Shown: piece after piece, positions 1,515-49,848 of the stretch | Position numbering within the stretch: position 1 is the stretch's first letter | Layout of the letters: each line of letters opens with the position of its first letter | NCBI GenBank assembly: GCA_003242475.1 | Contig: QGUN01000007.1 | Coordinates: 1 to 64,000 of the forward strand | Direction of reading: 5' to 3' | DNA length: 64,000 bases | Source of the DNA: Pseudomonadota bacterium | GTDB taxonomy: Bacteria; Myxococcota; Myxococcia; Myxococcales; Vulgatibacteraceae | Notes under the pieces: model-generated | Database searches by the model: none | Told to the model about the DNA's origin: nothing | The model's input: only the letters and a program-made list of their open reading frames with translations | Position numbers and translations under genes: made by a program

Positions 1515-2846
1515 TCAGGAGTCCTTCGCCGCCTCCTCCTCCACGTCCGCAAGGGTCTTGGGCACGTTGAGCAGGTGTGAAGTGGTCACCTTGTAGATGC
1601 CGTCCTTGCCCTCGATGCGAACGTAGGTATTGCCGGCCACGTCGTCGCTGAGGTGGTAGGTGGCGATGGCGTTGCCCTCGGCGTCGTAGAGCTCCACGGT
1701 GCGGGCGGGGGCATCGAGGCCGTGCTCGGAGGCGGCGGACGCGGGCAGGGTCTCCAGGGCTTTGAGCCCGGAGAGGTTGGAAAGGCCCGCGTTGACCTTC
1801 CATCGCTTGGCCGGCGCTTCCTTGGGCTCCTGGATGGCCCAGCCGTCGTCGGTGCGGGCCAGGACGAAGCGCTCCTCGCCCGAGCGAACGACCATGCGTG
1901 CCACCTTCGTCGTCTCGAACGGGGCGATGCGGCGGTCGCGGAGGTCGTCGGGATCCTTGCGAAGCTCGTCGACGACGCTCTTTTGCACCTCGGCGAAAAA
2001 GCCTCCGTTGGCCTGGGCGTAGACCTTGTCGTCCACCTTCCAGACGTGGATCTGGCGCTGCTCGCCGTCGCGCACCCAGACCTTCACCTCCAGCTCGGGG
2101 GTGCCGAGCTGGACCGAGGTCTTCTCGGGGAAGGCGATCGCCTTGAGATCCACGATCTTGCGCAGCAGGTTGTCCACCTCCCGCTCGTCCGTGTTGTCCT
2201 GCTTGGGAGCGAGCATCTTCCACTTGCCCTCCTCGCGGGCGAGCTCGACGAGGTAGCGGTTCCCCTCGATGCGAACGCGCTCGAGCGCGTCGCGGGAGAG
2301 GATGGCCAGCCGCTTGTCGCGCAGGTCGAAGCTCGACTTCTCCAGGGAGGACTTGAGGAAGGAGCTGCCGGCGTAGACCTTCCGCGGTGCGTTGCTGACG
2401 AAGTAGGAGTTGTCGAAGGTGTTCTGGTTGCCCACCGCGACGTAGGCGGTCTCTCCGCTCTCGGTCTTGGCCTCCACGCGGACGGGCGGATCCTCGAGAC
2501 CAAAGTTGGCGAGGTCGGTGTCTTCCAGGATCACCCGCGTTCGCTTGGCCTCGGAGAGATCGCGCAGGAGCCGATCCACCGCGGCCGCATCGGCGAGCGA
2601 GCCGACGGGGGCAACCACCCACCAGCTGCCGTCGCGCTTTTCCAGGACGGTGGTCTCGCCCTTGCCGCGGACGGTCAACGACGTGACCTTCTCGATGTCG
2701 AGGCCGAAGAGTTTCTCCTCGGCTTCCTTTGCGGCGAGCTCCTCCTGCTCCTTCTGGAAGACGCCGAAATAGGCGTAGGCGCCCAGAGCGGCCGCGAGGA
2801 CGAGCGTCACCGCCAGCGTGACGAGCATCCGGGTCTTCTGCGACAT
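1515..2846 (-). CDS. DUF4340 membrane-anchored protein of an ABC exporter operon
   Basis: A 443-aa protein with one N-terminal TM helix (about residues 7-27) followed by a large extracytoplasmic region. Segments such as VTSLTVRGKGETTVLEKRDGSWWVV are typical of DUF4340 repeats (beta-rich units with a 'W-v--P' core), and at least three such units appear to follow one another. DUF4340 proteins regularly sit last in GldAFG-type ABC operons, but their biochemical role is unknown. Here the gene starts 2 bases after the gldG-like stop, so translation is probably coupled. A periplasmic accessory role in the exporter is inference from that context. Confidence 0.85.
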   Translation of the reverse strand: MSQKTRMLVTLAVTLVLAAALGAYAYFGVFQKEQEELAAKEAEEKLFGLDIEKVTSLTVRGKGETTVLEKRDGSWWVVAPVGSLADAAAVDRLLRDLSEAKRTRVILEDTDLANFGLEDPPVRVEAKTESGETAYVAVGNQNTFDNSYFVSNAPRKVYAGSSFLKSSLEKSSFDLRDKRLAILSRDALERVRIEGNRYLVELAREEGKWKMLAPKQDNTDEREVDNLLRKIVDLKAIAFPEKTSVQLGTPELEVKVWVRDGEQRQIHVWKVDDKVYAQANGGFFAEVQKSVVDELRKDPDDLRDRRIAPFETTKVARMVVRSGEERFVLARTDDGWAIQEPKEAPAKRWKVNAGLSNLSGLKALETLPASAASEHGLDAPARTVELYDAEGNAIATYHLSDDVAGNTYVRIEGKDGIYKVTTSHLLNVPKTLADVEEEAAKDS

Positions 2847-2848
2847 GG

Positions 2849-4363
2849 CTACCTGGACCTACGCACCAGCCAAACCGAGAGGCCGACCGCGAGGACCAGC
2901 ATCGGCATGGCCGCGATGGAGAAGAAGTTGAGGAACTTCGCGTCGGCGGCGGTCAACGTCAGCCGCGACGCCGCCCGCACCTTCGGACGGATGGTGATCC
3001 GCTCCTCCTGCGAGACGAGCCAGTTGAGGGAGTTGAGGAAGAGGTCGGCGTTGCCGGCCGCGTTGACGAAGCGGTTGTTGACGAAGTCGGCGTCGCCGAT
3101 GGCGACGATCCGCGTCTTCGTCTCGCCCTCTCCCTTTTCCAGCGCGGCCAGCACGCCCAAGGAACCCCGGCGATCGGATTCCGGGGTGTACTGCGCCGCG
3201 CCGCTGCGCCAGTCGGTCTCGCCCCAGGCGGAAGGATTGGTCGTCGCCACGACGAGCGGGCGCGGATCGACGTCGCCCCGAGCGGTGATCGGGCGGACGG
3301 TGGGGAAGATGGTCTGGAAGGCGAATCCCTTGGTGATGGCGTGGTCGGCGTACTGCTGGACCACGGGGATGGCATCGCCGCCGCCGAAGAGCTTGGAGAG
3401 CGGGTCGACGATGATCGCGTCCTCGAAGAGGATCCCGTACTCGCTCAAGAGGTCGAGCAGGTTGGGATCGTCGAAGGTCGGTTCGAGCGCCACCAGCAGC
3501 CTTCCTCCATTGTGGAGGTAGCTCCGCAGGGCCTCGACCTCCTCGGGCATGAAGGGCCGCTGCGGTCCGAGGATCGCGAGCGCGCCGGCGTCCTCGGGGA
3601 TGGACTCGGTGCTCAGGTGCAGGGTCTTGTGCTCGAGGCCCTCGTTCGCGAGCCGCTGGGCGATGGTGGCGTAGCCGCGCTCGCCGGATTCGGTGAGCGA
3701 GCCCTCGCCGTGGCCGGTCACGAAGTAGACGACCTTCGAGGTGGTATGCAGCAGCTTCTTGATGGCGTTGGTGAAGCCCTCCTCGGTGAGGTCGGGGGAC
3801 TTGGCCTCGGCGCTACCCCGCAAGAAGACGACCCGGGGGCCGTGCTGGGTGATGTTCTTTTCCTGGACGAGCTGCGGCTCCTTGTCCGGGTCCACGAATT
3901 GCACGACCAGGTGGGAGCTTTCGCGCTGGTAGCGGTTGAGGAGCTCCTTGACGCCCTCGTAGGCGGGGTCGTTCGGCCCGAAGAAGGCGAGGACGCGCAC
4001 CTCGTCCTGCAGCGACTTCAAGACCTCGGTGGTCTCGGGGGCCAGGGTGAAGATCTTTTCGCGGGTGAAGTCCCACGAGACCTTCTGCTTGACCGCGATG
4101 TAGTTGACCGCGACCAAGGCGGCGCCGAGCAGAACGGTGATGATCGCCGACGCGGAGTAAAAGAGGGTGCCGCGGCCGGCGAAGGTGCGGCCCAGCGCGC
4201 CCTTGTTGGCGACGAAGTAGAAGACGATGAGGCCCAGGCCGACGATGCCCTGCCCGAGGCTCATGCCGCCGGCGCCCGGGACGAAGAGGAGCATCGAGGT
4301 GGCGGAGACGACCAGGGCGATTCCGAAGCCCAGAGCGATCCGCGAAAGCGTTCGCAGGTCCAT
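2849..4363 (-). CDS. GldG-family ABC transporter auxiliary membrane protein
   Basis: A 504-aa protein with several TM helices at the N-terminus (about residues 8-30, 38-52 and 70-92), a long soluble domain and one C-terminal TM helix before WLVRRSR. The soluble part starts with the WDFTREKIFTLAPET motif and contains VRVLAFFGPNDPAYEGVKELLNRY and VVYFVTGHGEGSL, which are hallmarks of the GldG / ABC_transp_aux family. In Bacteroidetes GldG works with GldA and GldF in gliding; in other phyla the same set is an ABC transporter of unknown substrate. It sits between the gldF-like permease (21-base gap) and the DUF4340 gene (2-base gap). The gliding link should not be assumed here. Confidence 0.85.
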   Translation of the reverse strand: MDLRTLSRIALGFGIALVVSATSMLLFVPGAGGMSLGQGIVGLGLIVFYFVANKGALGRTFAGRGTLFYSASAIITVLLGAALVAVNYIAVKQKVSWDFTREKIFTLAPETTEVLKSLQDEVRVLAFFGPNDPAYEGVKELLNRYQRESSHLVVQFVDPDKEPQLVQEKNITQHGPRVVFLRGSAEAKSPDLTEEGFTNAIKKLLHTTSKVVYFVTGHGEGSLTESGERGYATIAQRLANEGLEHKTLHLSTESIPEDAGALAILGPQRPFMPEEVEALRSYLHNGGRLLVALEPTFDDPNLLDLLSEYGILFEDAIIVDPLSKLFGGGDAIPVVQQYADHAITKGFAFQTIFPTVRPITARGDVDPRPLVVATTNPSAWGETDWRSGAAQYTPESDRRGSLGVLAALEKGEGETKTRIVAIGDADFVNNRFVNAAGNADLFLNSLNWLVSQEERITIRPKVRAASRLTLTAADAKFLNFFSIAAMPMLVLAVGLSVWLVRRSR

Positions 4364-17509: not shown

Positions 17510-18514
17510 ATGGGGCAGCGCATGCTCGACGTGGCGGTGGTGGGCGCGGAGACGCTCGCCGGCCGCGACCTCATCGAAACCCTTCTCGAAGAATCCTTCC
17601 CGATGGAGCGCCCGGCCCTCTTCACCATCGGTGAAGAGGTGGAGTCGGCTACGCTGGACGACGAGGAGGTCGACATCGTGCCGCTCGAGCCAGGTGCGCT
17701 GGCCAGTCGGGACCTCGTCTTCCTCCTGCCCGGCGCGCGTCCCGACCACCGCATCCTCGAGGAGGCCACGCGGGGCGGCGGTGTCGTCCTCGATGCGGCC
17801 GGGATCCTGCCGGACGCGCCCTTGATCTTCCCGGGCCTGAACGACGAGGACCTGGACGAGCACGAGGATGCCCTCGCGCTCTCTTTGCCCACTCCGCTGG
17901 CATCCCTTCTCGCCGCGGTGCTCGTCCCGCTCGACGCGCGAGCGCGGGTGAAGTCGGTGGACGTGGTGGCGCTGCGGGCGGCGGCGGGAGCGGGCAACCC
18001 CGGCCTGGACGAGCTCTCGCAGCAGACCATCGACCTTCTCTCCGGGCGCGACCCCGAGCGGAACGTCTTTTCCCAGCGCCTCGCCTTCAATCTCGTGCCG
18101 ATGATCGGGGTCTTCGAGGGCGGCGCCACCGACGCGGAAAAACTCGCTCTCGATCAGCTCGGTCGCCTCCTCGGCCGGCGGCCCGAGGCACACCTCGTCA
18201 GCGCCTGGGCGCCGCTCTTTCACGGCGCCACCGTCTTCTTCACGGTGCGGACCGAAAAGCCCCTCGACCGCGAGGCGGCGCGGGCAGTCTTTCGGGAAGC
18301 GGAGGGCCTGGCGGTCCTGGACGATCCGGAGCAGGGGATCTTTCCCATGCCCATGCTGGCGGTGGGCGACGACCGTGTCCACGTTGGCCGTTTCGTCCGG
18401 AGCGGCGACGTCCTGCGTCTGGTGGCGACGGCCGACGAACTCCGCTTCGGCGTGGCCTCGCCTCTGGTCGCGCTCGCCCGGGAGCTTCTGAACCGAGGGC
18501 GGCTATCGCGCTGA
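17510..18514 (+). CDS. Aspartate-semialdehyde dehydrogenase-like protein, probably non-catalytic (Usg type)
   Basis: A 334-aa protein with the two-domain Asd/ArgC fold: an N-terminal nucleotide-binding strand LDVAVVGAETLAGRDLIETL and a C-terminal dimerisation domain. At about 126-132, where true dehydrogenases have the NPNCT motif with catalytic Cys, the sequence reads LPTPLAS with no Cys; in fact no cysteine is visible in the whole protein. A histidine in PLFHGATV remains near the usual active-site position. This matches the known class of inactive ASADH homologues (E. coli Usg). Its stop codon lies inside the upstream regulatory site of the next gene. Function unknown. Confidence 0.75.
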   Translation: MGQRMLDVAVVGAETLAGRDLIETLLEESFPMERPALFTIGEEVESATLDDEEVDIVPLEPGALASRDLVFLLPGARPDHRILEEATRGGGVVLDAAGILPDAPLIFPGLNDEDLDEHEDALALSLPTPLASLLAAVLVPLDARARVKSVDVVALRAAAGAGNPGLDELSQQTIDLLSGRDPERNVFSQRLAFNLVPMIGVFEGGATDAEKLALDQLGRLLGRRPEAHLVSAWAPLFHGATVFFTVRTEKPLDREAARAVFREAEGLAVLDDPEQGIFPMPMLAVGDDRVHVGRFVRSGDVLRLVATADELRFGVASPLVALARELLNRGRLSR

Positions 18515-18561
18515 CAGATTGGCAATCCGGTGGCCCGCGGTCGTGCCATCCTGTCAATGGA
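18511..18561 (+). promoter_or_regulatory. Paired upstream activator-like sites before the MYXO-CTERM gene
   Basis: Two sites with similarity to TTGnCAAnTTGnCAA: CTGACAGATTGGCAA (18511-18525), overlapping the preceding stop codon, and a weaker CTGTCAATGG (18551-18560). Their centres are about 40 bp apart. The same motif pair with 41-bp spacing occurs upstream of gspC. The sites lie about 60-105 bp upstream of the sigma-54-like -12 element, a usual place for enhancer-binding proteins. Confidence 0.45.
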
Positions 18562-18606
18562 GAGGCCGAAGAAGGTGATTTTCGCGTACCCGGCTGGCTT
18601 TTTCGT

Positions 18607-18622
18607 CGGTCCGGAACTTGCT
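18607..18622 (+). promoter_or_regulatory. Sigma-54 promoter of the MYXO-CTERM gene
   Basis: CGGTCCGGAACTTGCT has GG-N10-GC spacing and a full TTGCT -12 element. It agrees with the gspC promoter at 12 of 16 positions. The predicted start site (about 18633) leaves a leader of only about five bases before the ATG at 18638, as in the gspC case. Confidence 0.5.
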
Positions 18623-18637
18623 AGGCTCCGCGCTCGT

Positions 18638-19777
18638 ATGCGTCTTTCTTCGATCGCTTTCGCGCTCTGCGCCCTCGTCTGGACGGCCCCGGCGCTCGGT
18701 CAGCGCCAGGTCGACGCGCTCTCGGTCAGCATCGAGCCGACTCGGCTTGGCAGCCGAGATTGCGGTCGGGTCTATACCCTGACGATCCAGGCCAGGATCC
18801 TGGGTCAGCCGGCGACCGGCGCTACCGACGGCTGGGACATCACCGTCGCCCGGGGCAACACCCGCTGCGAGGATGGCGAGCCGCTCGACGCCGAGCCGTC
18901 GGAGGACATGACCAACCGCGGGACCTACCGCGTCGGCCTGAGGGGCTCGGAGATCTTCGAGGCGGCGACGAGCCAGACCTGCCCGACGGAGGACGTCTCG
19001 CAGGAGGTCAAGGTCTGCGCGGTCTGGACGAACGACGACGACAGCCGCGTCTCCGCCAGCGCGAAGGTTCAGATCGACACCACCGTCCCCGACCGGCCGC
19101 GGATCACTTCGATCCAGCCGGGGGACCGGGCGCTGCACGTCTCGTTCGAGCCGGCCGGCGACAGCGAAGTGGGATCCTGGCACGTCTGCTTCCGCCTCGT
19201 CGGTCCTGCCGACGAGGAGGAGATCGACGAGCTCCGTTCGTACCAGCAGGGCGAGGGCGGCACCGCCGGATTCGGTGGCACTGGCGGATTGGGTGGCATC
19301 GGAGGATTCGGTGGCACCGGAGGATTTGGCGGCACCGGAGGATTCGGCGGAGAAGGCGGCAGCGGCGGATTGGGCGGTGAGGCCGGCAGCGGCGGATCCG
19401 GCGGAGTGACCGGCGTCGGCGGTGCCGGTGGCGAGGCCGGAGCCGGCGGCGGAGGCGGCGGGAACGGAAGCGACGACGAATTCGTCCCCGACCGCTGCCA
19501 CCGCGACATCGCCGGGGCCAAGCGGAACTACCGGCTCGACGGCCTGCAGAACGGCATGGTCTACGAGGTCGCGGTGCGCGCGGTGAGCACCAACGGCAAC
19601 CTCTCGCCTTTTTCCGCGCGGCGGACCGGCATTCCCACGCCGACGGACGGTTTCCTGGATCGGTACCGGCAGGCCGGTGGCGACGAGGAGGGTGGCTGCA
19701 GTACCGCCTCCGGCGTCGGGCCCTGGCCCTGGATCGGCACCTTGCTTCTCGCCCTCTTCTGGCGAAGGGGGCGGTAG
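18638..19777 (+). CDS. MYXO-CTERM-anchored surface protein with glycine-rich repeat (MXAN_2561-like)
   Basis: A 379-aa exported protein. A signal peptide (MRLSSIAFALCALVWTAPALG) is followed by a beta-rich region ending in a fibronectin type III-like domain: PDRPRITSIQPGDRALHVSFEPAGD and, after the insert, NYRLDGLQNGMVYEVAVRAVSTNGNLS. The FN3-like domain is split by a glycine-rich stretch of roughly 70 residues (GGxGGxGG units). The C-terminus has the sorting pattern of a GCS cysteine motif, a hydrophobic helix (WPWIGTLLLALFW) and a basic RRGR end. This is the MYXO-CTERM arrangement, processed at the surface and linked in myxobacteria to type II secretion. I recall the family as 'MXAN_2561 MYXO-CTERM-anchored' with an adjacent barrel partner, which is the order seen here; that recall is unverified. 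Confidence 0.8.
   Translation: MRLSSIAFALCALVWTAPALGQRQVDALSVSIEPTRLGSRDCGRVYTLTIQARILGQPATGATDGWDITVARGNTRCEDGEPLDAEPSEDMTNRGTYRVGLRGSEIFEAATSQTCPTEDVSQEVKVCAVWTNDDDSRVSASAKVQIDTTVPDRPRITSIQPGDRALHVSFEPAGDSEVGSWHVCFRLVGPADEEEIDELRSYQQGEGGTAGFGGTGGLGGIGGFGGTGGFGGTGGFGGEGGSGGLGGEAGSGGSGGVTGVGGAGGEAGAGGGGGGNGSDDEFVPDRCHRDIAGAKRNYRLDGLQNGMVYEVAVRAVSTNGNLSPFSARRTGIPTPTDGFLDRYRQAGGDEEGGCSTASGVGPWPWIGTLLLALFWRRGR
19252..19460 (+). repeat. Degenerate in-frame repeat coding for the Gly-rich stretch
   Basis: Imperfect 9- and 18-bp units of the type GGCACCGGAGGATTCGGT are repeated in frame and encode GGxGGxGG. Unit length is a multiple of three throughout, so copy-number change would lengthen or shorten the protein without a frameshift. 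There is no spacer structure, so it is not a CRISPR array. Confidence 0.8.
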
Positions 19778-19782
19778 GACCC

Positions 19783-20502
19783 ATGTACGCGCGCAAGCTC
19801 TCTCTCTGGGTGGCCCTGGCGGCGCTCGGCCTCGCGCCGGCGGCGCATGCGGCCGAGGACCTGGCGCAGGAATCGCCCCGCAAGTGGGTGCTCGACCTGC
19901 AGTTCGGCAGCTACTTCCCGTCGATCGACGAGGGGGTGCAGGGTAGCCCCTTCGCCGACTTCTTCGGCGGCAACAGCCTGATCACGCAACTCTCGCTGCA
20001 GCGACTCGTCTACCAGGGGATCGGCACCCTGGGGATAGGCCTGCAGGCGGGCTATAGCGAGTTCTTCGGGCGGACCTTCGTCCAGGGGACCGACGAGCGC
20101 TCGGGCGACCCCAGCTATTTCCGCGTCGTGCCCATCCAGCTCTTCGTGGCCTACCGCTTCGACTACGCGGCACTCCACTGGGACATCCCCTTCGTCCTGC
20201 ACGGCCGGGCGGGGATCGGCGAGTGGATCTGGTGGGAGAGCGGTCCGGGAACGGGCGACGACAGCGGCGCCAAGCTCGGATTCGGCCTTTCCGCCGGACT
20301 GGCCTTCCACCTCGACTGGCTCGACCCGAAGCTGGCGCGGGAATTCGACCGCAACTTCGGGGTCAACAACACCTACATCTTCGTCGAGTACACCTGGTGG
20401 AACGCCAAGTTCCGTGGGAACTTCTTCCGCCACGGCTTCGAGGCCCACGGCCTCGATCTCTCCGACGAGTTCGTCTCGGGCGGGGTCGCCTTCGAGTTCT
20501 GA
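19783..20502 (+). CDS. Outer-membrane beta-barrel protein (MXAN_2562-like)
   Basis: A 239-aa protein with a clear signal peptide ending AHAAED, then alternating hydrophobic strands (for example VLDLQFGSYFPS, LGIGLQAGYSEFF, PIQLFVAYRFDY, TYIFVEYTWWNAKF) and a C-terminal strand SGGVAFEF ending in Phe, typical of outer-membrane barrels. It starts 5 bases after the MYXO-CTERM gene, so the two are co-transcribed and probably work together at the cell surface. No specific function can be read from the sequence. Confidence 0.8.
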   Translation: MYARKLSLWVALAALGLAPAAHAAEDLAQESPRKWVLDLQFGSYFPSIDEGVQGSPFADFFGGNSLITQLSLQRLVYQGIGTLGIGLQAGYSEFFGRTFVQGTDERSGDPSYFRVVPIQLFVAYRFDYAALHWDIPFVLHGRAGIGEWIWWESGPGTGDDSGAKLGFGLSAGLAFHLDWLDPKLAREFDRNFGVNNTYIFVEYTWWNAKFRGNFFRHGFEAHGLDLSDEFVSGGVAFEF

Positions 20503-34467: not shown

Positions 34468-36105
<1,638 letters not shown>

Positions 36106-36158: not shown

Positions 36159-37073
36159 TCAGTTCAGGCGGAAGCGCGGTCGGACGAGCTGACCGTACAA
36201 CTGGATGGAGTGGTAGCCCTCCGAGTCCTGCTTGAGGGCCATGCTCGCGCCGGCGCGAAGCATCTCGTTGCGCTGCCAGAAGGCCTCGGTAGGCTTGAAG
36301 CGCAGCTTCGTCTGTAGCGTGGCGAGGGAGAGGCGATCGGCGAGGCGGATGGAGCCCTCGACGGTGGCGGAGATGTCCTCGCCCTCGGCCTGGAAGGTCT
36401 CGATCTCGGCGCGACCCTCGCCGATGGCGATCTTGCCTTCGAGCGTGCCGAGCGCCACGCGGGGAAGCTCGAACTCGTTGACCGCCCCGCCCTCGAGAAC
36501 CAGGTCGCTGCCTCGAATGGTGAGCTCGCCCGTCATCTCCCGCAGGCTCGGTCCCGCCGCCTGGAGGGAAAGCTCGTCGACCTTGCCGGATGCCTGCAGG
36601 CCGATGGCACCGAGGACGCTCTGGGAGAGATCCAGGCCCTTGGCATGGAGCTTGACGTGGCTGCCCTCGTCGTTCTTTCCGGCCTTTCCATGCAAGGAGC
36701 CATCCCAGAGACGGGCGTCGAACGAGAGGGCGGGTTTTCCCGTGAGCAGGCCGAGCAGCGAGGGGCGGACCGTGAGCCGGGAGAGGTGGATGGCCACCGC
36801 GCCCTTCTGCGCCTCGGGGTCGGGCTCGCGGAGCACGAGGTAGCTGTCGCGCAGGGTCAAGCCCGGGGGAAAGGCGAGGCCAACCGATTCCACGCGCAGC
36901 CGGATGCCGGCGTTGGCCTGCGCGGCCTGGACGAGTCGCTCCTTCACCTGGTCGGAGGGGAAGGTGAGGTAGAGCGAGATGGAGAAGACTGCCCACGAGA
37001 AGGCGGAGTAGGCCAGCCATCTCGCCCACCGCTTTTCGCGCAGTAGAGTGGAGAACTTGGCAAGCACGCTCAT
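36159..37073 (-). CDS. gspN: Type II secretion system protein GspN
   Basis: A 304-aa inner-membrane protein with one TM helix near residues 18-38 and a periplasmic beta-rich domain with AsmA/GspN-like strands (VESVGLAFPPGLTLRDSYLVLREP, ELTIRGSDLVLEGG). GspN is an accessory T2SS component absent from many systems but typical of deltaproteobacterial operons. The start overlaps the gspM stop (ATGA). Confidence 0.82.
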   Translation of the reverse strand: MSVLAKFSTLLREKRWARWLAYSAFSWAVFSISLYLTFPSDQVKERLVQAAQANAGIRLRVESVGLAFPPGLTLRDSYLVLREPDPEAQKGAVAIHLSRLTVRPSLLGLLTGKPALSFDARLWDGSLHGKAGKNDEGSHVKLHAKGLDLSQSVLGAIGLQASGKVDELSLQAAGPSLREMTGELTIRGSDLVLEGGAVNEFELPRVALGTLEGKIAIGEGRAEIETFQAEGEDISATVEGSIRLADRLSLATLQTKLRFKPTEAFWQRNEMLRAGASMALKQDSEGYHSIQLYGQLVRPRFRLN

Positions 37074-37639
37074 GAGGTCGCCAGAGAATAGGTGGAGACG
37101 GTGAGGGTCACGTCGAGGCGGTCCGGATCGTCGTTGCGACGCCGAATGCGGATGCGCTCGACCTTGACCCAGCGCGGGTTCTTCTCGATCTCGTTGACGA
37201 AGCGAAGCAAGGGCTGGAGTTCGACGGCGGCGAAGCTCACCTCCACCGTGGAGCGGACGACGCCGTCGCGCGTATCGGTGCCGCGGTCCTGCATGTCACC
37301 GATGGTGACGTTTTGCTTCTTGGCCGTCTCCTCCAGGTAGGAGAAGAGCTTGACCGGCGCCCCGCGAAGCCTCGTCTCGATGCGGTTTCGCTGCGCCTCC
37401 GCCTGACGGTAGGTGGCGGCGAGCTTCGCGACCTCCTGGATGGCCATCTCCTTGTAGGCGATGGCCTGCTCCTTCGCCTCGAGGCTCTTGCGGAAGGAGG
37501 TCAGGCCCAGGGCAACGATGGTCAGGACCAGGGCGATGCCGAGCAGGGAGACGAGCTTGCGCTCGCGCTCGGTCAGGCCGCTCCACGCTGCGGAGAGGCG
37601 GTCGGCGAGGTCCTGCAGAAATCCCAGCCTACGCATCAT
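37070..37639 (-). CDS. gspM: Type II secretion system protein GspM
   Basis: A 189-aa inner-membrane platform protein: a cytoplasmic start, one TM helix (about 31-50, KLVSLLGIALVLTIVALGL), a helical segment rich in Ala, Glu and Gln, then a ferredoxin-like periplasmic domain ending LDVTLTVSTYSL. It partners GspL. I set the start at the ATG in the ATGATG that overlaps the gspL stop. Confidence 0.85.
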   Translation of the reverse strand: MMRRLGFLQDLADRLSAAWSGLTERERKLVSLLGIALVLTIVALGLTSFRKSLEAKEQAIAYKEMAIQEVAKLAATYRQAEAQRNRIETRLRGAPVKLFSYLEETAKKQNVTIGDMQDRGTDTRDGVVRSTVEVSFAAVELQPLLRFVNEIEKNPRWVKVERIRIRRRNDDPDRLDVTLTVSTYSLATS

Positions 37640-39183
37640 CCCCTGGTCTCCTCGCGCTGGCCGCAGACGTAGGTGGCGTCCAGCGTCAGCTCCACCTTGT
37701 CGTCGCGGTTCTTCTGCACGCGGCCCTGCCGCACCTCCCCGATGCACTCGTGTTCGCGCAGGGCCGACTCGACCCGCTCGACGCCCTCGAAGGAATCGAC
37801 GACGCCGCTCACGCGCATCCGGTCCATCGTGCTCTCGATCTCGGTGACGCGTAGGCCGACGTCGGTCGGGATCTTTTCGATGGCGGCGCTCATCACGTCG
37901 AGGGCGGAGACGGTGGGGATCTGGGCCACGCGCGTATCGCCACCGCGCAGCTTGGAGAGGGCGATGTTGAAGTCGGATTCACAGGCGCCGAGAACGCGCA
38001 ACGTCACCGAGCAGAGGGCCTCGTCGAGCTCGGCCTCGCGCTTGTCGAGCGCTGCGAGACGCGAGAAGGCGTGGGCGGCGAGGAGCAGGACGATCACCGC
38101 CGCTGCCGCGCCCACGCGGAGCAGCTTTCCCTTCAGGTAGCTGAGGTCGCCGTGGAAGGCGTAGGGCCCCTTGCGGAAATTGAGGAGGTTGCGGCCCCGC
38201 TCCAGGCCGCGCACGGCGAGGCCGACCGCCTGGGCGAAGGCAGGGTCCGCGCCATCGCCGCCCGGCAGCGCGTCCACGACCTCCACCGGCAGGCCGAGCT
38301 GGCGCTCCAGCCAAGGTCCGATCCCCGCGATGCGGCAGGCCTCGCCGACGAGGCGGACCCCGTCGAGGGCGCGGGTGTCGCGCGTGCGGGCGGCGCTGAT
38401 CGTCTGGCGCAGGGGGCGGATCGCGGCCGCCAGGCGACGCTGGATCTCGCGCGCCTGATCGGAGCCGTCCTCCAGGCTGGGATTGGCCAGCTCGGCGACC
38501 TCGCCGATGCCGGTCTCCAGCGAGCGCAGAAAGGCGAGGGCGGGGCGGCCACGCTTGTCGGCCGTGCCGCGCGCGATGGCGACGAGGGTGCGCTCGGCCC
38601 CCAGGTCGACGAAGACCAGGCCGTTCTCCGCGCTGGAAAGCTGGGAGGCGCACGCCTCCGCGCCCAGCAAAAAGGTGCCCAGTGCGGGGAGCGTCACCAC
38701 GCGCGGGTCGAGACTCGCCTCGGCGAGCGCCGAGAGCAGCGCCTCCAGATCTTCGCCGCGGGTGATGCCGACCAGTAGCTCGCTCTTCCCCTTGGTGCGG
38801 GCGAGGACCTGGTAGTCGTATACCACCTCCTCCAGGTCCAGGGGGAGGATGTTTTCCACCTCGAAGCCGAGGGTGGCCTCGATCTTCTTGGTCTCGCCGA
38901 AAGGCAGCTCGAGGAAGGTGCTCGAGGCCTGGGCCGGCGGCAGCGCGGTGATCACGGCGTCGGGCTGCGCGCCGAGGCGGGCGCGCAGCGCGGCGAGGGC
39001 GGATGCGAAGGCTTCGCGCCAAAGCTCGCGCGGATCGGGGGCCTCCTCGCCTTCTGTTGCCACGCGCGGCTCGATGGGCACCTCCGCCGTCGCCCGGACG
39101 GCGAACTCCCGGGCCGTGCCCTCGATGAGCGCGCCGCGAAGGATGCGGGTCCCGATGTCGAGGCCGAGGATCTTCTGTGCCAC
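37636..39183 (-). CDS. gspL: Type II secretion system protein GspL, PilM-like cytoplasmic domain
   Basis: A 515-aa protein that links the GspE ATPase to the inner-membrane platform. The cytoplasmic part has an actin-like fold (KILGLDIGTRILRGALIEG, NGLVFVDLGAERTLVAIA and VRLVGEACRIAGI), as in GspL and PilM. A single TM helix near 366-385 (VGAAAAVIVLLLAAHAF) precedes a periplasmic ferredoxin-like domain. It is longer than the roughly 400-aa enterobacterial GspL. GTG start immediately after the gspK stop (TGAGTG). Confidence 0.88.
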   Translation of the reverse strand: MAQKILGLDIGTRILRGALIEGTAREFAVRATAEVPIEPRVATEGEEAPDPRELWREAFASALAALRARLGAQPDAVITALPPAQASSTFLELPFGETKKIEATLGFEVENILPLDLEEVVYDYQVLARTKGKSELLVGITRGEDLEALLSALAEASLDPRVVTLPALGTFLLGAEACASQLSSAENGLVFVDLGAERTLVAIARGTADKRGRPALAFLRSLETGIGEVAELANPSLEDGSDQAREIQRRLAAAIRPLRQTISAARTRDTRALDGVRLVGEACRIAGIGPWLERQLGLPVEVVDALPGGDGADPAFAQAVGLAVRGLERGRNLLNFRKGPYAFHGDLSYLKGKLLRVGAAAAVIVLLLAAHAFSRLAALDKREAELDEALCSVTLRVLGACESDFNIALSKLRGGDTRVAQIPTVSALDVMSAAIEKIPTDVGLRVTEIESTMDRMRVSGVVDSFEGVERVESALREHECIGEVRQGRVQKNRDDKVELTLDATYVCGQREETRG

Positions 39184-40428
39184 TCAATCCTCCCGATAGT
39201 AGAGGACCTTGCCGAGGCCGCCGTCGAGGCGAACCACGGTGGTGATCGTCTGGACGACGTCGCCGGCCTGGCCGCTGGCCCGGATGGTGTAGGTCTGGCT
39301 GGTGGTGCTGAACTCGGTGTTCATCACGTCCTGGCGCGCTTCCAGGCCGTGCATCTGCAGGACGGCGGCGAACTGCTGGGGCGTGAGCGGAGCGAAGGGC
39401 ATCGAGGCCTGCATGACGTCCAGCTCCCGCAGCATGGACTCGACCGTGTAGAGGTTCTCGAAGGCCGGGTGGTGGGGCTCGCGCGCCATCAGCCGCAAGA
39501 TGGTCAGCCGCTGCATGGGATCGCGCGTGTTCACGTTCAGCTTGGAATTGATGTCGGGATAGACCGTAAATCGATCCTGGAAGGCGGCCGCCAGGCGTTC
39601 GGACATGCCCGCCACCAGATGAATCTCGTCCATCGAGTCGAAGAGGGCGTTCTTGGGGCGATAGCGCTGCGGGTAGCGGACGTAGTGCCGCTCCTCGTCG
39701 GAGGCGGTGTCGGCGAATACCCCGGTGGCAAGCGTGAGGTCGAGCGCCGATTCCACCTCGTTTTCGTCGATGAAGTCCTTGATGCGGATGAGGAATTCCT
39801 CGCGGGTGACGCGCTCGCGATGCGTGTTTTCCTCCTCGAAGAGGAAATCCCAGCGCTCGTCGGAGATGAGCTGGAAGACGAGCTGCGCGGTGAATGCACC
39901 GGAGAGGCCGGGGTTGTTGAGCTTGTTGAGGTTGATCTTGGCCTCCTCGTCCTCGATCTCCGCGAAGAAGGTCCCCTGGTAGTTACCGAAGGGCTGCAGG
40001 CCCTCGGCCGGGACGAGCTGGCCGAGATGCTGTGAGAGCTGCGCGGGCGGAAGGGAGCCGACCGGCGTCGCCTCCTCCTCGCCACGCGCGGCCTCGACGA
40101 AGCCGCGGATGGCATCCCCGTGGACGGGGATGGCCTCCCAGACGCGGAAGTTCATGGAGGCCTGGCCGACGCTGCGGTCGAGGAGGGACTGAACGTAGAG
40201 GAGGACGCGCGCGAAGTTGGTTGCCGACTTCGCCAGGTACTGGGCGCGGAGTGCGTCTCGGGCGTTGGCCGCCAGGCGCACGTCCACGTGGGTGGAGTAC
40301 GCGAACTCCACCACCACGGAGGTGAGGACGGCGATGGTGGTGATCACCATGAGCAGGGCCATGCCCCGCCGTCCTCGCTTGCCCAGCGTGCCGGTGCCAC
40401 CGGCTTTGTCGGAAAAGACCCGCATCAT
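39184..40428 (-). CDS. gspK: Type II secretion minor pseudopilin GspK
   Basis: The large tip pseudopilin (414 aa). After a short basic leader, KRGRRGMALLMVITTIAVLTSVVVEFAYSTHVD is the prepilin-like segment cleaved by GspO, with the GspK-typical absence of Glu5 (residues MALLM). The inserted alpha-domain lies in the middle (LNKLNNPGLSG and later). The ATGATG start overlaps the gspJ stop; a longer frame upstream is only the gspJ antiframe. Confidence 0.88.
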   Translation of the reverse strand: MMRVFSDKAGGTGTLGKRGRRGMALLMVITTIAVLTSVVVEFAYSTHVDVRLAANARDALRAQYLAKSATNFARVLLYVQSLLDRSVGQASMNFRVWEAIPVHGDAIRGFVEAARGEEEATPVGSLPPAQLSQHLGQLVPAEGLQPFGNYQGTFFAEIEDEEAKINLNKLNNPGLSGAFTAQLVFQLISDERWDFLFEEENTHRERVTREEFLIRIKDFIDENEVESALDLTLATGVFADTASDEERHYVRYPQRYRPKNALFDSMDEIHLVAGMSERLAAAFQDRFTVYPDINSKLNVNTRDPMQRLTILRLMAREPHHPAFENLYTVESMLRELDVMQASMPFAPLTPQQFAAVLQMHGLEARQDVMNTEFSTTSQTYTIRASGQAGDVVQTITTVVRLDGGLGKVLYYRED

Positions 40429-41084
40429 CGGCCCAAAGGCGTCGTCAACGTGATCGTCGCCTGCGTCACGTACTTTTTCGGCTTGCCGTCGTCCCCCTCG
40501 GCGGTCAGCGTGATCCGCACCCGGTGCGGCAGGCGATTGGCCCACGCCACGTCGGTGGTATCCCACTCCGGGACCCACTCCTCCTTCTCAACATCCCAGT
40601 ACTCGAAGGTCAGCCCCAGGACCCCGGAGACGAGGACCATCTCCGTGCCCCCGCGCTCCGGATCGTCGTCGATGATCGGCTTGACGCGCCGGATCAAGGC
40701 GTTGACGCCGGGCTCGTTCGGATCGCGGTCGACCCGGTACTCGACGAGCGCCTGGTCGCTTTCTCGTGCGTCGACGTAGAGCCGATTGTGCGAGAAGGTG
40801 GTGAAGCGGAGCCGGCCGCGGTCGCCGCGCTCGCCGACGAAGTGGGTGGGGCGTTCGCGGTATCGCTTGGGATCGTAGCGGTCCGAGATGAAGGCCATGG
40901 CGAGGTCGCGGCGCATGCGATCCATGGCCAGCCGGATGGCGTGGTAGCGGTTGGCCTGGATCTCCACCTCCTCGCGCGCCTGCCAGATCGGCGAAAAGGA
41001 GCCCCATACCAGCCCCGCCACGAGAGCGAGGATGCCGATGGAGATCATCAGCTCCATCAGGGTGAATCCTCGCGCACGGCTCAT
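40425..41084 (-). CDS. gspJ: Type II secretion minor pseudopilin GspJ
   Basis: A 219-aa pseudopilin with the cleavage site RARG-FTLMELMISIGILALVAGLVW (Phe+1, Glu+5), followed by a helix with Arg-rich face (ANRYHAIRLAMDRMRRDLAMAF) and a beta domain with LVEYRVDRDP and EMVLVSGVLGLTFEYWD. It overlaps both neighbours by ATGA, as does every gene from orfX to gspJ. Confidence 0.9.
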   Translation of the reverse strand: MSRARGFTLMELMISIGILALVAGLVWGSFSPIWQAREEVEIQANRYHAIRLAMDRMRRDLAMAFISDRYDPKRYRERPTHFVGERGDRGRLRFTTFSHNRLYVDARESDQALVEYRVDRDPNEPGVNALIRRVKPIIDDDPERGGTEMVLVSGVLGLTFEYWDVEKEEWVPEWDTTDVAWANRLPHRVRITLTAEGDDGKPKKYVTQATITLTTPLGR

Positions 41085-41761
41085 GGCGTCACCTGCCTTG
41101 CGCCCGGGCCCGATGGCGACTGCGGCGCCTGCGGCGTAAGCGGGGTCTGCGGCGACTGAGGCAGCTGCGGGAGCATCTGGCTGGCGGCCTGGGCGTCTTC
41201 GGGGAGGATGACCAGGTGGGTGACCACGTCCAGCGTCTCCTCGCGTCCGCCTTCGAACCACGAGACCTGGAGCCTCACCTCGCGGACCGAGCGCTTGAGC
41301 AGCTCGACGAGCTGGGCCATCTGGCCCTCGAGCAGGCCCTGAAACGGAGCCGCCATGGACCGAACGTCGTAGGTGGGACCGCCGTCGCTGGCGGTCTGCT
41401 GCTGCTCGATATCGCCCAGGAGCTTGTCGACCAGCTCGCGGACGATGGTGGTGGCCAGGGCGGCGTCGAGCTTGGGGACGACGACTTCGGCTCTCCAGCG
41501 AAAGTCGTTCCAGCCCTCCTCGGAGAAATCGCCCTCCATCGTCTGGTCGAATTCCGAGGTGAACCCCTCGTGGAGGAAGTGGGTCTCGATATCCACCATC
41601 TTCGACCGGGCGAGGAGGGTGGCCACGGTCAGGCGCTTGGCGTAGGCGTGTGAGCGCACGGTCCCGCCGTTGATGCCCAGGATGGCGACGAGGCTGACCG
41701 CCAGGATGGCCAGCGCCACCATGACCTCGAGGAGGGTGAATCCGCGCGAGGGTCGCTTCAT
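41081..41761 (-). CDS. gspI: Type II secretion minor pseudopilin GspI
   Basis: A 226-aa pseudopilin with the prepilin motif PSRG-FTLLEVMVALAILAVSLVAIL. It is longer than the usual GspI (about 120 aa): it has an expanded central region with VRELVDKLLGDIEQQQTASDGG, and a Pro/Gln-rich tail of about 30 residues (PQLPQSPQTPLTPQAPQSPS) that is probably disordered. Together with GspJ and GspK it caps the pseudopilus. Confidence 0.88.
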   Translation of the reverse strand: MKRPSRGFTLLEVMVALAILAVSLVAILGINGGTVRSHAYAKRLTVATLLARSKMVDIETHFLHEGFTSEFDQTMEGDFSEEGWNDFRWRAEVVVPKLDAALATTIVRELVDKLLGDIEQQQTASDGGPTYDVRSMAAPFQGLLEGQMAQLVELLKRSVREVRLQVSWFEGGREETLDVVTHLVILPEDAQAASQMLPQLPQSPQTPLTPQAPQSPSGPGARQVTP

Positions 41762-42411
41762 CGCCGAAGCTCCTCCCGCGGGACCTCGATGCGCTCGCCG
41801 AGGACGCGGGTCCGCCCGGTGACGGGATCGACGACCACTGTGTAGACGTCGTCATCCCCGCGCGCCACGTGGATGTAGGCCCGCTCCGTCTCGCCGTGGG
41901 GGAAGAAGTAGAGGAAGGCGGTGCCGGCGGTATAGGGCTCGGGCTGGTGGTGGGTCCAGACCGAGGCGAAGCGCACGCCCTCCGGCAGTTCTTGCCTTCG
42001 CACCATCCGGCTTTCGAGGGCCGAGAACGACGACTTCGCCTCGATCTCCTGCATGGCCTGCGCCTGCAGGTCGTTGCGGGCGCGGTCGCGCCGCTCCGCT
42101 TCGTAGCGCTGGCCCCGGCGGCTCTCCTCCATCTGGACGATCCGCACCCGGCCTTCGGCACACTCCGGCCAGTAGGCTCCCTCTTCGAGATCGAAGACGA
42201 GCCGACAGGTTCGGCCGGAGAGGACCGATTCGCCGTACATGGCGCGGATGGCCGCCGCCATCTTCGAGGCCGCCTCCCGAGTTTGCAGGCCAAGGGCGCT
42301 CTGGGCAGACGGGACCACCACCAGGGCGATGGCGATCACCAGCCCGGAGACGATGAGGAGCTCCAGCAGCGTGAAGCCCCGGTCGTTTGGCCTGCGCGCC
42401 CTCAACTTCAA
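41758..42411 (-). CDS. gspH: Type II secretion minor pseudopilin GspH
   Basis: A 217-aa pseudopilin: NDRG-FTLLELLIVSGLVIAIALVVVPS, a helix, then the GspH-like domain with GESVLSGRTCRLVFDLEEGAYWPE. The central helical stretch (QRYEAERRDRARNDLQAQAMQ) is charged and longer than average. The start overlaps the gspG stop. Confidence 0.88.
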   Translation of the reverse strand: MKLRARRPNDRGFTLLELLIVSGLVIAIALVVVPSAQSALGLQTREAASKMAAAIRAMYGESVLSGRTCRLVFDLEEGAYWPECAEGRVRIVQMEESRRGQRYEAERRDRARNDLQAQAMQEIEAKSSFSALESRMVRRQELPEGVRFASVWTHHQPEPYTAGTAFLYFFPHGETERAYIHVARGDDDVYTVVVDPVTGRTRVLGERIEVPREELRR

Positions 42412-42821
42412 TCGGCGTAGATGAAGCCCGAGGGATCTCCCTGGCCCCCGGGGCCGTAGGAGTAGACGTCGTATCCCTTGGGGTTGCGCTGGCCGGGGTA
42501 GAGGTAGACGTAGTCGCGCCCCCAGGGATCCTTCTTCAGGCTGCCCTTGAGGATTCCCTCGCTGTACAGCGCCTGCAGGCCCTCGGCGGTGCTGGGGTAG
42601 GTGCCCTTGCGCAGCATGTAGATGTCGAGGGCGTTCTCGAAGTTGTGCAGGTCGAGCTTGGCGGCCTTGATCTTGGCGTCCTCGGAGACTCCGCCGACGT
42701 TCACGGCGACGACGGTGGCGATCAGCCCGAGGATGAACACCACGATCATGATCTCGATGAGGGTCATGCCCCTCGCGCCGCTGGCGTTGCGGGCCAGCAG
42801 TCGACGCAGCCAGTTCTTCAT
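42408..42821 (-). CDS. gspG: Type II secretion major pseudopilin GspG
   Basis: The main pseudopilus subunit (137 aa). The leader ends GARG and the mature protein begins MTLIEIMIVVFILGLIATVVAVN with Glu+5. The C-terminal half has the GspG core LDIYMLRKGTYPSTAEGLQALY, KKDPWGRDYVYLYPG and a calcium-loop-like YSYGPGGQGD. I chose the ATG at 42821 with AGGAGG upstream; it overlaps the stop of the small gene orfX. Confidence 0.95.
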   Translation of the reverse strand: MKNWLRRLLARNASGARGMTLIEIMIVVFILGLIATVVAVNVGGVSEDAKIKAAKLDLHNFENALDIYMLRKGTYPSTAEGLQALYSEGILKGSLKKDPWGRDYVYLYPGQRNPKGYDVYSYGPGGQGDPSGFIYAD

Positions 42822-42991
42822 CTCGCTTCCTCCTCGAAGGACGATTCCCAGGAGATCTCCTGACGAACCAGATTCGCTCCGGCCGGCTCTGGCCGGAAGA
42901 TCCATGCGCCCGTGGCCAGGAGAGCGAGTACGGTGGCGACCACCGCCGTCCATGCGATGGCTCTGAGTCCCCTGTCCAGGCGCGACTCCAT
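42818..42991 (-). CDS. Small single-TM protein between gspF and gspG (orfX)
   Basis: A 57-aa frame: a charged cytoplasmic start (MESRLDRGLR), one TM helix at about residues 11-31 (AIAWTAVVATVLALLATGAW), then a 26-residue extracytoplasmic tail ending in an acidic SSFEEEAR. It begins 10 bases after the gspF stop with AAGGGGG as Shine-Dalgarno sequence. Its TGA overlaps the gspG ATG in the same ATGA manner as the neighbouring gsp genes. It has no prepilin cleavage motif and no PDZ, so it is neither a pseudopilin nor GspC. I know of no named T2SS component matching it. A small platform or regulatory subunit is inference from position. Confidence 0.72.
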   Translation of the reverse strand: MESRLDRGLRAIAWTAVVATVLALLATGAWIFRPEPAGANLVRQEISWESSFEEEAR

Positions 42992-43001
42992 GTTTCCCCC
43001 T

Positions 43002-44243
43002 TCAGCCGACCATCGTGTTCATCTGCAGGATCGGCATCAGAACCGAAAACACCATGAAAGCGATCACCGCACCCATCATCACGATCATGATGGGCTCCAG
43101 GAGGCTCGTGAGCGCCGCGATCCGCGCGTCCACTTGCGCGTCGTAGGCGTTGGCCACGTTGGCGAGCATCTCTTCCAGCTGACCCGAGCGCTCACCGATG
43201 GCGATCATGTGGTAGACGAGCGGCGGAAATTCCCCGCTTCGCCTCAGCGGTCCCGCGATCGACTCACCTTCGCGGATGGACTCGCGCGCCTTCTCGATGA
43301 CATCGGCGAGTACGGAATTGGTCACCAGCGCCTTGACGATGTTCATCGAGGTGAGCAGGGGAACGCCGCTCTGCAAGAGCGTGGACAGCGTCCGGCTGAA
43401 GCGGGCGATGGCGAGCATGCGGATGAGGGGACCGAAGACGGGGAGCTTGAGCAAGAAAGCATCCCACTTCGCCCGGCCCTTCTCGGTTTTCTTCCACCGC
43501 AAGAAGACGAAGAGTCCCACCGCCGCCAGCGCGAGGACCAGCCACCACTTTTCCCGCACGAAGTCGGCCGTGCCGATGAGGACGCGGGTGACCAGAGGCA
43601 AGGTGGCGCCCATGTCCTCGAACATCTGCGAGATCTTCGGGATCACCACCGTCATCAGGATGGAAACGATCCCGAAGCCCACCACCATCATGATGGCGGG
43701 GTAGAGCATGGTGCCGAGCACCTTGGAGCGCAGCCGCGCCTGGGCTTCGGTGAAATCGGCCAGGCGGTTGAGCACCACGTCCAGCGCACCGGAGTGCTCT
43801 CCCGACCGCACCATGTTGACGTAGAGGGCCGAGAAGGCGCGGGGATGCTCGGCCAGGGCGTCGGCGAAGGAAGCACCTTCGTTCACCCGGTCCTTGACCT
43901 GGGTGACGATGGCCTTGAGGCGATCGTGATCGGTCTGCTCGATCAGCGCGACGAGGGCCTCGACCAGGGGGATGCCGGCGCCCAGGAGCGTGGCGAGCTG
44001 GCGGGTCATCACGGCGATGTCCACCGCCTTGATCCGCCCGGTGAAAAACTGCTTGAGCTTGAGGTTCTTCGCCGTGCCGCCGACGCCGACCGAGCCGACC
44101 GCCTGCCGCTCGGCGACCACCTCGGTCAGATAGATGCCCTCCTTGCGGAGCAGGGCCCGGAGCGCACGGGGATTTTCGGCGTCGCGGACACCCGTTACCG
44201 CCTTGCCCCCTTCGCGGAATCCCCTGTACTCGAAGACCGGCAC
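43002..44243 (-). CDS. gspF: Type II secretion inner-membrane platform protein GspF
   Basis: A 413-aa polytopic protein with two GspF domains (about 75-195 and 275-400) and three TM helices, including AIMMVVGFGIVSILMTVVI and IMIVMMGAVIAFMVFSVLMPI. RQLATLLGAGIPLVEALVAL and RTLSTLLQSGVPLLTSMNIV are the repeated domain starts. It anchors the assembly platform and contacts GspE. GTG start, 12 bases after the gspE stop. Confidence 0.95.
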   Translation of the reverse strand: MPVFEYRGFREGGKAVTGVRDAENPRALRALLRKEGIYLTEVVAERQAVGSVGVGGTAKNLKLKQFFTGRIKAVDIAVMTRQLATLLGAGIPLVEALVALIEQTDHDRLKAIVTQVKDRVNEGASFADALAEHPRAFSALYVNMVRSGEHSGALDVVLNRLADFTEAQARLRSKVLGTMLYPAIMMVVGFGIVSILMTVVIPKISQMFEDMGATLPLVTRVLIGTADFVREKWWLVLALAAVGLFVFLRWKKTEKGRAKWDAFLLKLPVFGPLIRMLAIARFSRTLSTLLQSGVPLLTSMNIVKALVTNSVLADVIEKARESIREGESIAGPLRRSGEFPPLVYHMIAIGERSGQLEEMLANVANAYDAQVDARIAALTSLLEPIMIVMMGAVIAFMVFSVLMPILQMNTMVG

Positions 44244-44255
44244 CGATCCGCCCCC

Positions 44256-46034: not shown

Positions 46035-46098
46035 CGTCTCTTCCCAACGAATCGGGGAGGGCGTGACCTTCCCCGGGGGCTACGAAAGGGTCCCCGAT

Positions 46099-48669: not shown

Positions 48670-48715
48670 CAAAGAACCCGACGTTTGCGGCCTCCGGATG
48701 CGGATGCCGGTTGGC

Positions 48716-49654
48716 TCACCTGACGTTGACGGTCTTGGTCTGGACCTTGCCCCGCCGCTCCAGCTCGACCTCGATGCGGCTGGACTCCCGGAGCTTGGCG
48801 TAGAGCTCGAGCGCCTTCTCCGGGCTGTCGATCGCGTATCCGTTGATCTTGCGGATCACGTCTCCGTTCTGGAGGCCGATCTTCTGGTAGAGCGAGCCGG
48901 GACGAATGGAGAAGATCTTGAATCCGTTCGCTTTCCCGTCCTTGAAGGAGGGGACGACGCGCGCCTGGGTGGCGAGCGCGCTCAAGTTGGCGAGCTGGCG
49001 CTCCACGTCCTCGCGGGAGATCTCGTAGGTGTCGTTTCCCACCTGCCGAACCTCCGCGGGTTCGACCTGGGGCGCGCCGCCACGCGAGGACGTCGCGGAT
49101 GGAGTCGGCGTGGCCGAGGCGAGTCTCTGCAGCTCGCCGGTCTTCGACTCGTCGATGGCGATGTACTCCTTGCGGCCCTGGTTGAGGAGGATGACGCGGA
49201 GCCGCTCGATCTCGAGGACGGTTGCCCCCTCGATCTCGTCGCCGACGAGGTATACGCCGACGTGCTCTCCGCCCGACTTGCGGATCGTGGCGAAGGACCA
49301 CTCGGGCCGGTTGGCCACCATGGTGCCGACCAGGGTGAGGTTGAGCGAGCTCGGAACCGCCTCGGCATCGGGGTCGTAGGCCGGCATTTCCGGCTCGCCG
49401 GCGGTGGGATCTTCGGAGGGGAGCTCGATGCCCAGGAAGGCTGCCGTCCGCTCGAGCGGGAGGCTGCCGGCGCGCGCCAGGAAGGCTGCGCCCGGATTCC
49501 CCGCCGACGACGAAGGGGCCATGGCGTCGAGGTCGACCGGCGCGACCAGGCGGGCGGCCAACAGGGCGTTGGTGGTCAGGGCTCCCAGGAAGGAGATCAC
49601 GGCCAGAAGGGCCAGCTCCACCGCCCAGAAGTACTTTCGGAACAAAATCTCCAT
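48716..49654 (-). CDS. gspC: Type II secretion protein GspC with PDZ domain
   Basis: Connects the inner platform to the secretin (312 aa). One TM helix (WAVELALLAVISFLGALTTN), a Pro/Ala-rich linker, a homology region LNLTLVGTMVANRPEWSFATIRK with the typical IxxIxxxRVILLNQGRKEYI, and a C-terminal PDZ domain (FKIFSIRPGSLYQKIGLQNGDVIRKINGYAIDSPEKAL). It is the first gene of the T2SS operon; 46 bases separate it from gspD. The sigma-54 promoter lies almost directly at its start codon. Confidence 0.93.
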   Translation of the reverse strand: MEILFRKYFWAVELALLAVISFLGALTTNALLAARLVAPVDLDAMAPSSSAGNPGAAFLARAGSLPLERTAAFLGIELPSEDPTAGEPEMPAYDPDAEAVPSSLNLTLVGTMVANRPEWSFATIRKSGGEHVGVYLVGDEIEGATVLEIERLRVILLNQGRKEYIAIDESKTGELQRLASATPTPSATSSRGGAPQVEPAEVRQVGNDTYEISREDVERQLANLSALATQARVVPSFKDGKANGFKIFSIRPGSLYQKIGLQNGDVIRKINGYAIDSPEKALELYAKLRESSRIEVELERRGKVQTKTVNVR

Positions 49655-49671: not shown

Positions 49672-49687
49672 AGCAAGCTCCATGCCG
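49672..49687 (-). promoter_or_regulatory. Sigma-54 promoter of the T2SS operon
   Basis: On the reverse strand CGGCATGGAGCTTGCT matches the consensus TGGCAYGN4TTGCW at all but the first base (GG and GC separated by 10). The predicted start is near 49661, leaving about seven untranslated bases before the gspC ATG, so the message would be nearly leaderless. Confidence 0.7.
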
Positions 49688-49792: not shown

Positions 49793-49848
49793 TTGACAAA
49801 TTGGCAAGGGAGCGGCCCAAGGCGGCTGGCGCCGTGACAAATTGGCTC
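49793..49848 (-). promoter_or_regulatory. Paired upstream activator sites for the T2SS operon
   Basis: TTGACAAATTGGCAA (49793-49807) and GTGACAAATTGGCTC (49834-49848) share the 12-base core TGACAAATTGGC. The first is a near-palindrome TTGnCAAnTTGnCAA. Centres are 41 bp apart (about four helical turns) and 127 and 168 bp upstream of the -12 element, which suits a sigma-54 activator. Copies also occur before the gene at 18638. Confidence 0.6.

Follow-up and report, generated by a model that had tools for sequence, protein, structure and literature searches.

Does the type II secretion system (T2SS) operon of this locus answer to the same regulator as a separate MYXO-CTERM gene and, if it does, is the product of that gene cargo of the secretion machine? 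We analysed a stretch of 64,000 nucleotides (hereafter the window, at its full length) from a draft genome of 2.73 Mb (128 contigs, 92% complete). A sigma-54 promoter with two predicted activator sites, common to the T2SS operon and the MYXO-CTERM gene, is strongly supported by sequence comparison, and a single regulator probably activates the two gene sets together. The regulon looks small, comprising the T2SS operon and one MYXO-CTERM/outer-membrane-barrel pair, i.e., two or three promoters. The features of the two control regions are as follows.

18511-18525 (+), predicted activator palindrome A of the MXAN_2561-type gene, core TGACAGATTGGCA at 18512-18524, matched by similar sites at this position in relatives
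18543-18557 (+), predicted activator palindrome B of the MXAN_2561-type gene, core TGCCATCCTGTCA at 18544-18556, 32 bp from A
18607-18622 (+), sigma-54 -24/-12 element CGGTCCGGAACTTGCT of the MYXO-CTERM gene, 8/11 consensus positions, single copy in the window
18618-18627 (+), possible extended -10 TTGCTAGGCT, overlapping the sigma-54 element of the MYXO-CTERM gene
49834-49848 (-), predicted activator palindrome A of gspC, GAGCCAATTTGTCAC, with similar sites in relatives
49793-49807 (-), predicted activator palindrome B of gspC, TTGCCAATTTGTCAA, 41 bp from A
49672-49687 (-), sigma-54 -24/-12 element CGGCATGGAGCTTGCT of gspC, 10/11 consensus positions, single copy in the window

Direct reading of the two 16-nucleotide promoter elements showed that they are identical at 12 of 16 bases and have GG-N10-GC in common, as the first-pass annotation had it. 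With the predicted +1 placed 12 nt past the -12 C, the leaders are also as short as it stated, at 5 nt (ATG at 18638) and 7 nt (ATG at 49654). Its palindrome spacing of about 40 bp holds for gspC (41 bp) but not for the MYXO-CTERM gene (32 bp), and the promoters that it called unlinked do serve separate operons but lie on the same contig, 31 kb apart. The -24 elements of this genome are degenerate (CGGC and CGGT). Palindrome A at 18511-18525 overlaps the stop codon of an asd-like gene. The segment 18623-18637 leaves nearly no leader ahead of the MXAN_2561-type start codon, a property kept in relatives.

The genes of the two operons and the candidate activators are listed here.

18638-19777 (+), MXAN_2561-type MYXO-CTERM protein, 379 aa, signal peptide-like N-terminus by eye
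19783-20502 (+), MXAN_2562-type outer-membrane beta-barrel, 239 aa, NF040596 at 181 bits (cut-off 100)
48716-49654 (-), gspC, first gene of the T2SS run, NF041515 at 303 bits (cut-off 150)
37070-48672 (-), remaining T2SS gene run, including pseudopilin-like genes
46099-48672 (-), gspD
44256-46034 (-), gspE
43002-44243 (-), gspF
42408-42953 (-), gspG
37636-39183 (-), PilM_2 (gspL-like)
37070-37747 (-), gspM
49863-51245 (-), NtrC-type response regulator with a receiver, a sigma-54 AAA+ domain with GAFTGA and a Fis-type HTH, adjoining gspC
34468-36105 (-), FHA-type sigma-54 activator with GAFTGA, beyond the T2SS genes

The label "MXAN_2561-type" for the 18638-19777 protein rests on its position, its neighbour and a partial score, namely 121.8 bits against NF045522, under the family cut-off of 150. 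Six relatives were divided by the same model, with three passing (L158, L240 and L195; 312-351 bits) and three failing (L134, L124 and L161; 73-111 bits). TIGR03901 (Cys motif, membrane helix, arginines) gave 22.9 bits for the window protein, over its cut-off of 20. A glycine-rich repeat of the GGFGGTGG type can be read directly within the protein at 19240-19470. The barrel gene lies 5 nt past the MXAN_2561-type gene and is presumed to be in the same operon; comparison of a barrel alignment (15 sequences) with solved structures revealed no relative at E ≤ 0.1. A single rpoN gene was detected in the genome (PF04552, 219 bits). Directly upstream of the regulator is a small lipoprotein-like gene (51256-51801, -), which is found in only two of 30 loci (the window's and that of a same-family genome) and is thus not part of the module.

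To what extent could such an arrangement arise by chance? Within the window, a palindrome pair followed by GG-N10-GC occurs only at these two promoters, and it occurs in none of 60 dinucleotide shuffles, when at most one mismatch per palindrome is allowed, the pair is 30-33 or 40-42 bp apart and the promoter word scores at least 8/11. In the draft genome as a whole, the exact palindrome TGNCANNNTGNCA was located at four places, of which the MYXO-CTERM promoter contains two, the region upstream of gspC one and contig C48 one; its reversed control occurs at three per strand, so its placing is unusual and its count is not. The fourth copy (C48:17521, L112) is within long open frames, and a sigma-54 element was not found nearby; this copy was taken as chance, as was a near-match at C3:9767, which by eye is inside an apparent long coding stretch. 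Exact TTGNCAANTTGNCA was also seen in L073, L077, L078 and L081 without a nearby -24/-12 element scoring at least 10, i.e., the palindrome alone occurs elsewhere. When one mismatch was allowed, GG-N7-CTTGCTA had seven matches in the window (the exact two being these promoters) against 7.5 expected, which is not significant. When this genome was scanned strictly for TGGNACNNNNNTTGCW, neither site was recovered and one match was obtained elsewhere, against three for the reversed control, indicating that the -24/-12 motif by itself cannot identify the regulon. The weight of the observation comes from the combination of elements and from their conservation.

For the gspC side, the best matches of the regulator (49863-51245) were sought in 60 genomes, the own genome included, and 30 loci were fetched. 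In 27 of the 30, the own locus included, gspC adjoins the regulator (E < 1e-47 in 25 and a weaker value in 2); 1 is without gspC and 2 end at a contig edge. We scored 27 downstream regions for the best GG-N10-GC word in 300 bases, excluding two truncated loci and one with an N run. The -24/-12 element reached at least 10/11 in 26 of them, 25 of which (all but the window's own) had 11/11 and the form TGGCAY-N5-TTGCT, and at least one palindrome with no more than one mismatch was detected in 25 of 26 regions (none in L030). The one low-scoring region, L026, has no adjoining gspC. In that genome (G014), gspC is on a contig other than that of the regulator's best match and the motif is there with it (L159), so the motif is a feature of gspC rather than of the regulator's tail. 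A regulator search of wider contigs gave relatives with 41-62% identity among the matches listed. In L281, from a Polyangia MAG (2272-2690), two palindromes and then, by eye, TGGCACG-N4-TCGCT follow the regulator, an arrangement suggesting that the circuit extends beyond the order; in L279 and L280, which with L281 are the best three of the matches listed, neither palindromes nor a -24/-12 element were apparent.

At the MYXO-CTERM gene, relatives were identified by protein search in 19 of 60 genomes, and the asd-like protein (E ≤ 1e-40) in 7 of 60, the own genome being counted in both. The asd stop was placed by tblastn in 17 other genomes (not placed in G002, G015 and G043), and 13 of these 17 have a -24/-12 element at or above the threshold of 9/11 (9-10 observed) together with a palindrome with at most one mismatch. 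The exceptions without such a promoter and palindrome are G003, G020, G022 and G024, the last with two palindromes, by eye, directly before the gene itself (L088). The form on the MYXO-CTERM side is TGGCNY-N5-TTGCW, with CGGC in the same-family genome G001, and in relatives there is often an overlap between the first palindrome and the asd stop codon. Most relatives examined have kept the palindromes and a near-consensus TGGCNY-N5-TTGCW at both genes.

We combined the -24/-12 element (TGGC required) with a palindrome 96-126 bp upstream and scanned 117 Myxococcales genomes. This type of scan had been proposed in the first-pass annotation as a measure of specificity, and it bore the idea out: 155 matches were obtained in 93 genomes against 3 for the reversed pattern, and 140 of the 150 matches classified (with labels from iterated blastp starting from two window proteins) precede gspC, gspC-like or MXAN_2561-type genes. 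Two matches were found in 46 genomes, one in 40, three or four in 7, and none in 24; the window's own genome (G000) has none because both of its -24 elements are degenerate. A total of 77 of the 150 precede gspC or gspC-like genes (67 gspC and 10 stand-alone gspC paralogues) and 63 precede MXAN_2561-type genes (65 counting two read by eye). Among the ten unlabelled matches, two were read by eye as lying at MYXO-CTERM genes (L161, whose gene product scores under the NF045522 cut-off, and L171), two have nothing labelled downstream (L117, where the match reads into an asd-like coding sequence, and L139), and the remaining six look like chance.

The gspC paralogues in L143-L151 are from one genus and are located away from the main gspC, some without the N-terminal part; they have the same sigma-54 promoter and palindrome as the main gspC. 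Three gspC paralogues that were checked scored 117-178 bits against GspC_delta, one of them over the cut-off of 150. Extending the combined pattern to 195 genomes of the phylum yielded 19 matches from outside the order, where the control had 3. Of the eight that were examined, L272, L273 and L277 precede gspC-like genes; the other five do not.

A second palindrome with at most one mismatch, sought 25-50 bp on either side (the nearest being taken among equal sites), stands 30-33 or 40-42 bp away in 79 of 80 such labelled promoters and 25 bp away in one, and with two mismatches it is present in 50 of the 63 MXAN_2561-type promoters; as related genomes are counted many times, these spacings and site counts are not independent observations. 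Distances from palindrome to promoter fall into clusters near 97, 105, 115-117 and 125-126, of which the outer ones may be cut because the pattern admitted only 96-126. Such spacings and distances fit predicted sites on one face of the helix. The first ATG is 13-18 nt past TTGC in 62 of 63 MXAN_2561-type promoters, giving leaders of about 2-7 nt, and at gspC the TTGC-to-ATG distances vary widely.

Given the anatomy and conservation of the two regions, it is highly probable that they are sigma-54 promoters of one small regulon, with the two palindromes bound by an NtrC-type activator. Sigma-54 RNA polymerase would wait at both promoters on TGGCNY-N5-TTGCW, and activator dimers would bind the palindrome pair (consensus TTGNCAAWTTGNCAA), whose members are separated by about three or four turns of the helix. 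Once phosphorylated, the activator would oligomerise and loop to the polymerase, and its ATP hydrolysis would lead to the open complex. The outputs, fired jointly, would be the T2SS operon from gspC onward and the two-gene operon of MXAN_2561 and MXAN_2562 type. The response regulator at 49863-51245 is likely the activator and fits better than the FHA activator; it would then bind the palindromes itself and respond to phosphorylation. Its DNA-binding domain was compared with the half-site type (TGCCA or TGACA) as a source of binding evidence, and this was rejected, the RTIYRK helix being constant and the differences tracking families.

The alternative that survives best accepts the regulon and assigns the palindromes to another sigma-54 activator, either the FHA-type protein (34468-36105) or a further one in the genome. 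There are 16 matches to the sigma-54 AAA+ family to choose from (13 of them above 140 bits), the FHA activator with its GAFTGA sits past the T2SS genes, and in the available part of one study the DNA-binding domain of Nla28 was able to bind a fragment of an M. xanthus T2SS promoter (MXAN2511; PMC9765219). We nevertheless regard another activator as unlikely, as the response regulator is conserved with gspC (the 25 of 30 loci with E < 1e-47 plus the 2 weaker ones), and the published Nla28 half-site, CT(C/G)CG(C/G)AG, is unlike TGNCA.

Less probable again is transcription of the MYXO-CTERM gene by the housekeeping sigma factor from the extended -10 TTGCTAGGCT, alone or overlapping a sigma-54 promoter, with the -24 resemblance being secondary. 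The element TTGCTANNNT is indeed present in the window and in 45 of 63 MXAN_2561-type promoters, against 0 of 77 of the gspC type. However, its occurrence in the window is at the level of chance (1 found against 0.73 expected), and the 18 of 63 promoters without a TANNNT fit after TTGC still keep the -24 TGGC and the spacing (TGGC being required by the scan pattern). Orthologues found by protein (L090, L092-L095, L097, L099 and L100) also have TGGC, and this explanation leaves the paired activator sites unaccounted for. An extended -10 promoter overlapping the sigma-54 element may still be present at the MYXO-CTERM gene. Finally, it is very improbable that the palindromes function at the RNA level, as hairpins or as terminators of the genes upstream (the regulator and asd), for although they are at or just past the upstream stop codons, by eye no T run follows and the loop has only one to three bases, the feature kept by eye is palindrome identity and not stem length, the motif in G014 goes with gspC and not with the regulator, and the palindrome-promoter distances cluster.

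With a common sigma-54 regulon as the preferred reading, we returned to the nature of its second target. The first-pass annotation had suggested that a single regulon connects the secretion machine and its probable cargo. In M. xanthus the T2SS carries MYXO-CTERM proteins to the surface (PMC11980579, in the part available), which makes a cargo reading reasonable. Eight MYXO-CTERM candidates were detected in the genome (six over the cut-off), with the 18638-19777 protein scoring best, and exact sites were found in the own genome at one of the eight; as the other seven have no exact site, this is not a general cargo regulon. The MYXO-CTERM gene in the labelled scan matches is of one family, the MXAN_2561 type, and 40 of the 46 scanned loci, some of them duplicates from the same genome, have a barrel homologue as well. 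The common promoter and activator-site design stands, but the cargo reading narrows to one family and one of eight candidates. For these reasons (one candidate with sites, one family, and the accompanying barrel) we lean towards MXAN_2561/2562 being a special client or accessory pair of the machine and not cargo in general, with products that would serve or use the T2SS. More tentatively, and with the balance somewhat against it, the pair could be a dedicated part of the T2SS pathway, a lipid-anchored surface protein with its barrel made only with the machine; its role may be, for example, that of a surface receptor or of a release or feedback module. On this reading the pair may be the sole other target of an order-wide two-promoter regulon.

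In L262 (family f7; 1947-3656, -), the MXAN_2561- and MXAN_2562-type genes are fused in one frame of 569 codons, in which a signal-peptide-like stretch comes after an internal MYXO-CTERM, and such a fusion was partly read in L115 and L160 as well. The barrel part of the L262 fusion is over its family cut-off, and the MXAN_2561 and MYXO-CTERM parts are under theirs.

With the proposed regulon, the myxobacterial T2SS would have a control circuit that is concrete and open to testing, including a defined (predicted) binding site, and a little-studied, widespread surface protein pair would be tied to this system. As the regulon seems to be limited to two or three promoters, loss of a single regulator should reveal both the secretion switch and the function of the pair.

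The gene nla4 is presumably MXAN_2516 and, if so, the orthologue of the window's regulator. The roles described for Nla4 concern relA/(p)ppGpp, nla6 and development (PMC4048283, in the sections available). The literature searched, with subscription papers mostly outside it, contained nothing joining Nla4 with type II secretion or myxobacterial gspC with NtrC, and no reference to MXAN_2561, MXAN_2562 or MXAN_2516; MXAN_2515 appeared there in an unrelated context only. The first-pass annotation knew of no description of the motif, and the same literature yielded none among the listed matches, as judged by title, nor any link of T2SS sigma-54 control to MXAN_2561/2562.

COG3031 and COG1450 are presumably GspC and GspD. 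Both are among the T2SS COGs reported as enriched in the predicted sigma-54 regulons of Myxococcia; that study, in its available part, differs from ours in giving no activator motif, regulator or MYXO-CTERM link (PMC12316311). Sigma-54 control of the myxobacterial T2SS is not new, having been reported or predicted before (PMC9765219, PMC12316311, each as available in part). The Nla28 regulon is alike in having a sigma-54 activator at a myxobacterial T2SS operon, since the DNA-binding domain of Nla28 bound in vitro to the promoter of a 10-gene M. xanthus T2SS operon (MXAN2511). It differs in the half-site given above, which is unlike the palindromes here, and the accessible text on the regulon does not mention MXAN_2561 (PMC9765219). 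Judged by gene number, the MXAN2511 promoter is probably an inner promoter, with gspC presumably upstream of MXAN2511. Work on MYXO-CTERM, myxosortase and T2SS sorting concerns protein processing, and the available part draws no transcriptional link, the sole "promoter" being a cloning tool (PMC11980579).

The PEP-CTERM box with PrsK-PrsR is similar in that a sorting-tag gene is under an activator motif and a sigma-54 promoter, with an NtrC-type response regulator (PMC1569441, in part), and one PEP-CTERM gene is described as RpoN-dependent in the available part of another report (PMC9850573). The window regulator scored 441.1 bits against TIGR02915 (PrsR), under the cut-off of 502.6, and hence does not qualify as PrsR. 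According to the available text, the PEP-CTERM box precedes 99 of 167 proteobacterial tag genes (PMC1569441), whereas the motif described here accompanies one tag family and a secretion operon.
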